Source: Saprospiraceae bacterium (GTDB lineage Bacteria; Bacteroidota; Bacteroidia; Chitinophagales; Saprospiraceae). From it: a stretch of 46,389 nt of DNA. The stretch lies in contig JALVCY010000056.1 in the NCBI GenBank assembly GCA_027009605.1, forward strand, positions 1 through 46,389, given 5' to 3'. A program made the position numbers and the translations under genes. The notes under the pieces are model-generated. The model saw only the letters and a program-made list of their open reading frames with translations. It searched no databases and was not told where the DNA came from. Position 1 is the first letter of the stretch. The number at the start of each line of letters is the position of its first letter. Shown one piece after another: positions 10,777 through 25,771 of this stretch.

Positions 10777-11802
10777 ATGATAGTAAGAGCAAAAGCACCA
10801 TTAAGACTAGGATTAGCCGGCGGGGGCACGGACGTCAGTCCTTTTGTGGACACCTATGGCGGCAGTATTCTGAATGCCACTATCAATCTATATGCACATG
10901 CCACCATCGAGCCCAGAGCCGACGGAAAAATCGTCTTAAATGCCATCGACTTAGGTGAAAATGGAACTTTCGATGCCTCCAAGCAACTGGAAATTGACGG
11001 GCATTTGTCCCTACTCAAAGGAGTGTATAACCGAATCGTCAGAGACTTCATCCAACGACCATTATCGTTTACGTTGACGACTTTTGTAGATGCCCCCAAG
11101 GGCTCCGGTCTAGGCTCTTCTTCGACGATTACAGTGGCCATTTTGGGGGCTTTTATTGAGTGGCTAAAGCTACCACTAGGCGAATATGACATTGCCCACT
11201 TAGCCTATTCCATTGAGCGTCAAGACCTTGCAATGGCCGGTGGCCGGCAAGACCAATATGCTGCGACTTTTGGGGGCGTCAACTTCATGGAGTTTTACGC
11301 AGATGATAAAGTGATTGTCAACCCCTTGCGTATCCGCGAAAAATACTTGCATGAATTAAATTTCAACCTATTGCTTTACTACACAGGTACTAGCCGCCTT
11401 TCGGCAAAAATAATAGAAAAACAAGCCAAAAACTTTGCCGCAAAATCCACTCGCTCCATCGAAGCGGCTCTAAAACTCAAGGAACAATCCATCCTCATGA
11501 AAGAAGCCATCTTGACCGGAGATTTGGATAAATTCGGCCAAATCCTAGACCTAGGCTGGCAATCCAAAAAAGAAACCGCACCCGGCATCTCCAATGAAGT
11601 CATTGATGAAATATATGCTCAGGCAAGAGCCGCCGGTGCTACCGGCGGGAAAATATCCGGTGCCGGTGGTGGAGGCTTTATGATTTTTTACGCACCCGGC
11701 ACCGCACGATATCCGGTGATGGATTTATTAAATTCATTTGGTGGTGTAGTTCGCCCTTATAGCTTTACGACTCAAGGTTTGATTAGTTGGCGCATTGATT
11801 AG
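10777..11802 (+). CDS. hddA: GHMP kinase, likely D-glycero-alpha-D-manno-heptose-7-phosphate kinase
   Basis: RAKAPLRLGLAGGGTDVSPF, GSGLGSSSTITVA, KISGAGGGGFMIFY; next to gmhA/hddC. Confidence 0.85.
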   Translation: MIVRAKAPLRLGLAGGGTDVSPFVDTYGGSILNATINLYAHATIEPRADGKIVLNAIDLGENGTFDASKQLEIDGHLSLLKGVYNRIVRDFIQRPLSFTLTTFVDAPKGSGLGSSSTITVAILGAFIEWLKLPLGEYDIAHLAYSIERQDLAMAGGRQDQYAATFGGVNFMEFYADDKVIVNPLRIREKYLHELNFNLLLYYTGTSRLSAKIIEKQAKNFAAKSTRSIEAALKLKEQSILMKEAILTGDLDKFGQILDLGWQSKKETAPGISNEVIDEIYAQARAAGATGGKISGAGGGGFMIFYAPGTARYPVMDLLNSFGGVVRPYSFTTQGLISWRID

Positions 11803-11924: not shown

Positions 11925-12185
11925 GTTCAATTTGTGCTTCGCACGTTCAATTTGCCCTTCGGGCGTTCATTGCCTTCGGCGTTCAAGGGGAATGCTCTCT
12001 TGGCTGCCTTCCCGATATACCGTTACACCGTTATACCACTATACCGTTCATTGCCTTCGGCGTTCAATTTGTGCTTCGCACGTTCAATTTGCCCTTCGGG
12101 CGTTCAATGTCCTTCGGACGTTCAAGGGGAAAGAGCTCCTGGCCGCCTTCCCGTTAGACCGCTACACCGTTATACCGTTATATCG
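11925..12185. repeat. Tandem duplication (~137-bp period) of mini-hairpin arrays (GTGC-TTC-GCAC, GCCC-TTC-GGGC, GCC-TTC-GGC, GTCC-TTC-GGAC)
   Basis: 'gttcaatttgtgcttcgcacgttcaatttgcccttcgggcgttca' at 11925 and 12062, followed in both copies by ggc(t/c)gccttcccg and ccgttatacc words. Confidence 0.8.
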
Positions 12186-12261
12186 TCCCAAAGACCAAAG
12201 ACAAAAACGCCACACATCAGGCAACAAATCCCCCAACAATGAGTTACTATATCGAATAAAT

Positions 12262-12424
12262 GTAACTGTTTAGGTGCTCCTATTTTAGGGCAAAAAATAG
12301 GCATTTTTGTGGATGTTGAAGCTACAATTTTTGAAGCGTAGCTGGGCTACGTGAAAATATTTTAGCAAAAACAGGCGCAAAAAGGGCATTTTTTAACCAA
12401 AATAGTGGGCACATAAACAGTTAC
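12262..12424. mobile_element. MITE-like element, copy 1 (163 bp), GTAA-type inverted ends, 8-bp TSD
   Basis: GTAACTGTTTAGGTGC...GGGCACATAAACAGTTAC; GAATAAAT directly repeated at 12254-12261 and 12425-12432; shares most sequence with 25482-25643. Confidence 0.85.
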
Positions 12425-12437
12425 GAATAAATAAACC

Positions 12438-13010
12438 ATGCAAGAAAGAATAAAACAAATCCTGCAAGCCTCTATTTCGGTCAAGCAATCCATACTTCAG
12501 GATAAAGATTTGCAAGCCAACATACAAAAAGCAGTCAACATTTCCATTCAAGCCTTTCAAAAGGACAAAAAACTCCTTTTCTGTGGCAACGGAGGCAGTG
12601 CGGCAGATGCCCAACACCTAGCGGCTGAATTTTCCGGAAGGTTTTATATAGACCGGAAACCTCTTTTTGCGGAAGCGCTCCATGTCAATACTTCCTATTT
12701 GACGGCGGTAGCCAATGACTATAGCTTTGAGGAGATTTATTCTCGGATGGTTATTTCCAAAGGACGGGTTGGAGATGTGTTATTTGGATTATCCACTTCC
12801 GGAAATTCCCAAAATATCATTCGTGCCTTCGAGCAGGCTAGAGCGCAAGGAGTCATCACCATTGGAATGACCGGCGCATCGGGCGGAAAAATGAAAGCAT
12901 TGAGTGACCTCTTAATCAACATTCCATCAACCGATACGCCGAGAATTCAAGAGTCCCACATTACCGTAGGTCATATTATTTGTGAATTAACCGAAGCAGC
13001 TTTATTTTGA
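12438..13010 (+). CDS. gmhA: D-sedoheptulose-7-phosphate isomerase
   Basis: SIS-domain protein: LLFCGNGGSAADAQHLAAEFSGRF, STSGNSQNI. Confidence 0.93.
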   Translation: MQERIKQILQASISVKQSILQDKDLQANIQKAVNISIQAFQKDKKLLFCGNGGSAADAQHLAAEFSGRFYIDRKPLFAEALHVNTSYLTAVANDYSFEEIYSRMVISKGRVGDVLFGLSTSGNSQNIIRAFEQARAQGVITIGMTGASGGKMKALSDLLINIPSTDTPRIQESHITVGHIICELTEAALF

Positions 13011-25449: not shown

Positions 25450-25481
25450 TCGATTTTTTTTGCAAGATACGAATAATTTAT

Positions 25482-25643
25482 GTAACTGTTTAGGTGCCCC
25501 AATTTTTAGGTAGAAAACAGGCATTTTTGTGAATGTTGTCGTAGGGACGCACGGCCGTGCGTCCCTACGTGAGAAAATTTTAGCAAAAACAGGCGCAAAA
25601 AGGGCATTTTCTAACAAAAATTAGTGGGTGGCTAAATAGTTAC
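25482..25643. mobile_element. MITE-like element, copy 2 (162 bp), GTAA-type inverted ends, 8-bp TSD
   Basis: GTAACTGTTTAGGTGCCCC...GGGTGGCTAAATAGTTAC; TAATTTAT at 25474-25481 and 25644-25651; 30-bp perfect palindrome at 25540-25569. Confidence 0.85.
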
Positions 25644-25771
25644 TAATTTATTAAAGTTTCAATACATCGGTTTATTGGCATTCCGGTTTAGCCGCTAGGT
25701 GATTAGTAAAACTTTGTGGACAGCAATTTCTTATTTGTAAAATCGAATGACGCAGCAGCCTGACCACACGT

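Follow-up and report, generated by a model that had tools for sequence, protein, structure and literature searches.

The 163-bp element directly ahead of the gmhA gene in the analysed window (i.e., the whole 46,389-nt stretch of Saprospiraceae DNA) is a member of a real mobile family of MITEs. The family is new, the kind of element is already known, and sequence comparison makes it highly probable that such copies are moved in trans by a single-ORF transposase of the ISBst12 subgroup of IS66. An abundant MITE family of an uncultured Saprospiraceae genus is hereby described and linked to a little-studied subgroup, for which a literature search retrieved no described MITEs. A search on Saprospiraceae MITEs gave a single hit, concerning a bioreactor community.

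A hairpin element with an exact target-site duplication precedes gmhA

The element occupies positions 12262–12424 (plus strand), and carries arms of subfamily A around a centre of type C1 (AAGCTACAATTTTTGAAGCGTAGCTGGGCTACGTGA). End comparison revealed a left terminal inverted repeat, GTAACTGTTTAGGTGC (12262–12277, plus strand), and a right one reading GTAACTGTTTATGTGC as its reverse complement (12409–12424, minus strand), the first and the reverse-complemented last 16 bases being identical at 15 of 16 positions. Immediately outside these ends, the 8-bp target-site duplication GAATAAAT is exact on the left (12254–12261) and on the right (12425–12432), and with the gmhA ATG at 12438 the element stops 13 bp ahead of the start codon. 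An earlier note on this DNA had claimed precisely such a 163-bp element with inverted ends, a perfect 8-bp duplication and a 13-bp distance to gmhA, all of which held. When the window was scanned, an exact 8-mer repeat at the spacing of the element occurred at 6 of 46,189 positions. No transposase ORF is present inside the element which, being short and non-coding with terminal inverted repeats, has the make-up of a MITE.

The entire 163 bp form a single long palindrome, predicted to fold into a hairpin of −65.9 kcal/mol (z = −9.8, i.e., 9.8 standard deviations under shuffled sequences), the outer arms of which span 46 nt with 72% complementarity. An Rfam search of the window yielded zero matches, and a search for a promoter inside the MITE found just one-mismatch Bacteroidota –7-like strings, which were not counted as evidence. 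The window contains a second copy of 162 bp (25482–25643, plus strand), with arms of subfamily B and a centre of type C2 (CGTAGGGACGCACGGCCGTGCGTCCCTACG), and flanked by exact 8-bp duplications TAATTTAT at 25474–25481 and 25644–25651.

The element belongs to an abundant family concentrated in one genus

The genome from which the window originates is a fragmented bin of 4.36 Mb in 708 contigs, in which at least 40 MITE places were scored on each strand at 90–100% identity. The exact 15-mer end was found 145 times in this genome (vs. 0 for a reversed control), and ends with up to two mismatches 358 times (vs. 37 for the reversed control). This excess of ca. 320 end motifs corresponds to roughly 160 elements if most of them carry both ends, which is an estimate rather than a count. 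The census of copies was based on loci taken around these end motifs, and 41 of the 59 copies that could be paired by their ends displayed an exact 8-bp duplication, with a one-base difference in 8 more. The exact duplications had an A+T content of 83%, vs. 58% for the surrounding loci; one pair detected in this latter analysis, with a length of −8, was an artefact and was left out. Once joined, 14% of 63 insertion sites fell inside open frames ≥150 codons long, vs. 74% of control positions from the same loci.

Since the bin is so fragmented, a palindrome created by chance or by assembly, with no mobile element behind it, might be considered. However, there are dozens of copies with differing flanks and their own duplications, and the family also occurs in independent congener assemblies. 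The copy number in itself excludes a chance origin, so that this reading, already refuted, retains virtually no probability.

The family was also detected in three of four congeners (77–90% identity), and among 56 other relatives outside the genus only a single 44-bp partial match was obtained. A scan of public genomes likewise found the 16-mer end to be overwhelmingly confined to the source genus, whose members are named there as Saprospiraceae MAGs. Occurrences of this 16-mer in Flexithrix, Runella, Geobacteraceae, Ignavibacteriales and Clostridia were rejected as family members, as each was a lone motif with no paired end nearby and looks like chance; a transposase ORF beside the motif was looked for in Flexithrix and Runella, and none was seen. 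Two further observations concern single loci. A contig edge in a Flavobacteriales bin (JALVEJ; L105), from a sample shared with the congener bin G003, bears a MITE end, and this contig is possibly misbinned. A possible decayed relative was observed at L173:6070–6239, where one GTAACTGTTTAGGTGT end and a degenerate inverted end are ca. 170 bp apart, with an unrelated interior.

Orthologous sites lack the element

The earlier note had proposed to look for empty sites in relatives. The flanks of copies from the source genome were compared, with MITE copies masked, to ca. 0.8 Mb of sequence from congener G001. For three insertions (L231, L008 and L209), both flanks aligned at orthologous sites from which the element was absent. 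The clearest of these was L231, where G001 has one single 8-bp, target-sized stretch between the aligned end of the gene (GAAGAAGAACGGAAGAAA) and the aligned sequence downstream (TTAACA..AAGGAACA), while the duplication and a further 161 bp occupy this position in the source genome.

At the gmhA locus, the gene for the SIS-domain phosphoheptose isomerase (gmhA, 12438–13010, plus strand) is preceded by that for an hddA-like GHMP kinase (10777–11802, plus strand) at a distance of 635 bp. The earlier note held that the MITE separates gmhA from hddA; it does lie in between, but together with one duplication it fills just 171 of the 635 bp, and congeners have no hddA there. The remainder is partly made up of other short repeats, and the gap is owed more to these than to the MITE. 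Within 11926–12106, TTCAATTTGTGCTTCGCACGTTCA and TTCAATTTGCCCTTCGGGCGTTCA each occur twice (0.01 expected by chance) next to CCGTTACACCGTTATACC-like repeats; similar strings are present in L226, and the stretch also matches congener locus L118. Should hddA and gmhA be co-transcribed, the MITE hairpin would sit in the transcribed gmhA leader, 13 nt ahead of the start codon.

Congeners G001 and G002 harbor an orthologous locus with a glycosyltransferase, gmhA and a HAD phosphatase in the same order as in the window, beside infB, and the G002 glycosyltransferase is 74% identical to that of the window. This locus is element-free upstream of gmhA and also devoid of hddA, and because hddA is missing there, a base-exact empty site between hddA and gmhA is not demonstrable. 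The source genome (9615–14245) has the arrangement glycosyltransferase-hddA-gmhA-(nucleotidyltransferase+HAD fusion), and the congeners (L085, L087) glycosyltransferase-gmhA-HAD only. From this gene content, hddA and the hddC-like domain appear to have been gained or lost next to infB, the locus being orthologous in other respects.

Arms co-vary while the centre is exchangeable

Full-length copies have arms of either type A (..TCCTATTTTAAGGCAAAAAATAGG..) or type B (..CCCAATTTTTAGATAGAAAATAGG..), and in the source genome A-left arms were joined to A-right arms in 39 of 39 cases and B-left to B-right arms in 17 of 19. Arm pairing was predicted at −18.7 kcal/mol for A-A and −18.2 kcal/mol for B-B, vs. 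−10.8 and −14.6 kcal/mol when arms were swapped between types. Both alternative centres, C1 and C2 (the latter being the 28-bp palindrome GTAGGGACGCACGGCCGTGCGTCCCTAC), were found with both arm types, indicating that centre and arms have recombined. Short forms of 57–59 and 76–82 bp, several of which have exact 8-bp duplications (e.g., L168:1991–2047, L233:5610–5666 and L190:1944–2021), look like deletions of the inner hairpin.

The most unusual trait of the family is the co-variation of its arms around an exchangeable centre. This might indicate that the hairpin is under selection, its outer arms having co-changed in two subfamilies around a swappable centre, so that the substrate of the transposase may be a folded strand, or some copies could serve as leader RNA structures (ahead of gmhA, among others), although we regard this as rather unlikely. 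The maintenance of arm complementarity within subfamilies and its reduction upon swapping, together with the very stable hairpin and the intergenic location, could also be read as signs of a domesticated REP/ERIC-like repeat that has a host role (in transcription termination, mRNA stability or nucleoid binding) and now rarely or never moves. Against this, copies that are 97–98% identical and have exact duplications point to recent movement, and orthologous sites in congeners are without copies. Moreover, selection against gene disruption, together with A+T-rich targets, accounts for the intergenic bias. Domestication of the family is thus highly improbable, while some individual copies could be in use by the host.

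The ends point to a single-ORF IS66 transposase

The earlier note had further suggested an IS66 derivative, and this is supported by the GTAA ends, the 8-bp duplications, and the existence in the clade of IS66 elements whose ends match fully or nearly so. Comparison of these ends supports a sharper assignment, i.e., to the single-ORF ISBst12 subgroup rather than to classical three-ORF IS66, as the probable source of the transposase. Classical elements were rejected as parent, since the ends of L059 and L055 (GTAAGCGTCCGAGCAA) do not match the MITE after GTAA. The single-ORF group is represented in Saprospiraceae by L065, L066, L069, L330 and L331, elements of ca. 1.5 kb whose ends read GTAACT..T.AG and whose 8-bp duplications are exact. 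L330 and L331 are complete (1483 bp, one ORF, exact 8-bp duplications), with GTAACTATTTAGGTCA on the 5′ side of the transposase and GTAACTATTTAGGTGT at the opposite end; the ORF of L330, in which DDE_Tnp_IS66 was tested, has DDE_Tnp_IS66, zf-IS66 and DUF6444 domains. The MITE end GTAACTGTTTAGGTG matches their GTAACTATTTAGGTG at 14 of 15 bases, the counterpart in G001 and G003 being GTAACTGTTTAGGTC. It is the GTAACTATTTAGGTGT end of L330 from which the MITE end GTAACTGTTTAGGTGC deviates once within the first 15 bases. Complete single-ORF elements with ends differing by one base are therefore known from Saprospiraceae (L330 and L331), but no complete IS bearing exactly the ends of the MITE was recovered.

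Closer partners were encountered as fragments within the genus. On contig C50 of congener G003, the end GTAACTGTTTAGGTCAA lies 48 bp ahead of the start of a transposase ORF that is cut by the contig edge and the first 89 residues of which carry DUF6444. In G001, the same end is present at three sites, with an ISBst12-like ORF start confirmed behind two of them. Behind the exact GTAACTGTTTAGGTCAA end, only the first 42–89 residues of these ORFs are present before the contig edge, and contigs break within ca. 100–320 bp of the end, as would be expected of a multi-copy IS in a short-read metagenome assembly. Among 248 Saprospiraceae genomes, GTAACTGTTTAGGTCAA is restricted to the source genus. 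The MITE and these partner ISs have only ca. 14–15 terminal bases in common, so that simple internal deletion of a recovered IS does not explain the MITE.

Searches of the source bin with PF03050 and with an alignment of ISBst12-type transposases detected no IS66 transposase or fragment, and a lone partner-type end was found there (G000:C190:2307). Several other IS families also make 8-bp duplications. Both points would suit a transposase from a non-IS66 family with this property that uses the MITE ends. Nevertheless, these ends match those of ISBst12-type ISs of the same genus and family over 14–15 bases, the match extends to the difference between the two IS ends (AGGTG vs. AGGTC), and the 16-mer end is concentrated in the source genus, which makes a non-IS66 enzyme very unlikely. 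We thus infer that an ISBst12-type transposase mobilises the MITE and was present when the gmhA-side copy inserted. Such a transposase would recognise the GTAACTGTTTAGGT ends in trans and insert the MITE into A+T-rich, mostly intergenic DNA, where a staggered target cut would leave the 8-bp duplication.

Implications and comparison with known systems

MITE copies fragment metagenome assemblies, with many contigs ending within the palindrome, and their presence in gene leaders makes them matter for binning and operon predictions. The arm-by-centre modularity, in turn, constitutes a natural data set on the origin of MITE subfamilies.

Among known systems, ISBst12-type ISs (ISDge4, L330/L331, L065 and L069) resemble the MITE in their terminal bases GTAACTnnTnAG and 8-bp duplication, and those of Saprospiraceae have hosts in the same genus and family. 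ISDge4 itself has the ends GTGACTACTCAGCA/GTAACTGCTCAGCA, an 8-bp duplication and a single 449-aa transposase, and its transposition has been observed (PMC12898284). In contrast to these ISs, the MITE lacks an ORF, has ca. one-ninth of their length, forms a continuous hairpin, and has only terminal bases in common with those recovered here. Classical IS66 elements (tnpA/tnpB/tnpC; e.g., L059 in congener G002) also start with GTAA and have a transposase of the IS66 DDE family, but their ends (GTAAGCGTCCGAGCAA, GTAAGCG...) diverge after GTAA. Finally, MITECca01 of Cardinium is likewise short, non-coding and mostly intergenic, with 169 copies and ends in common with its parental IS, but differs in being a 240-bp derivative of the IS982 family, the parent of which is intact in the same genome (PMC9769881).
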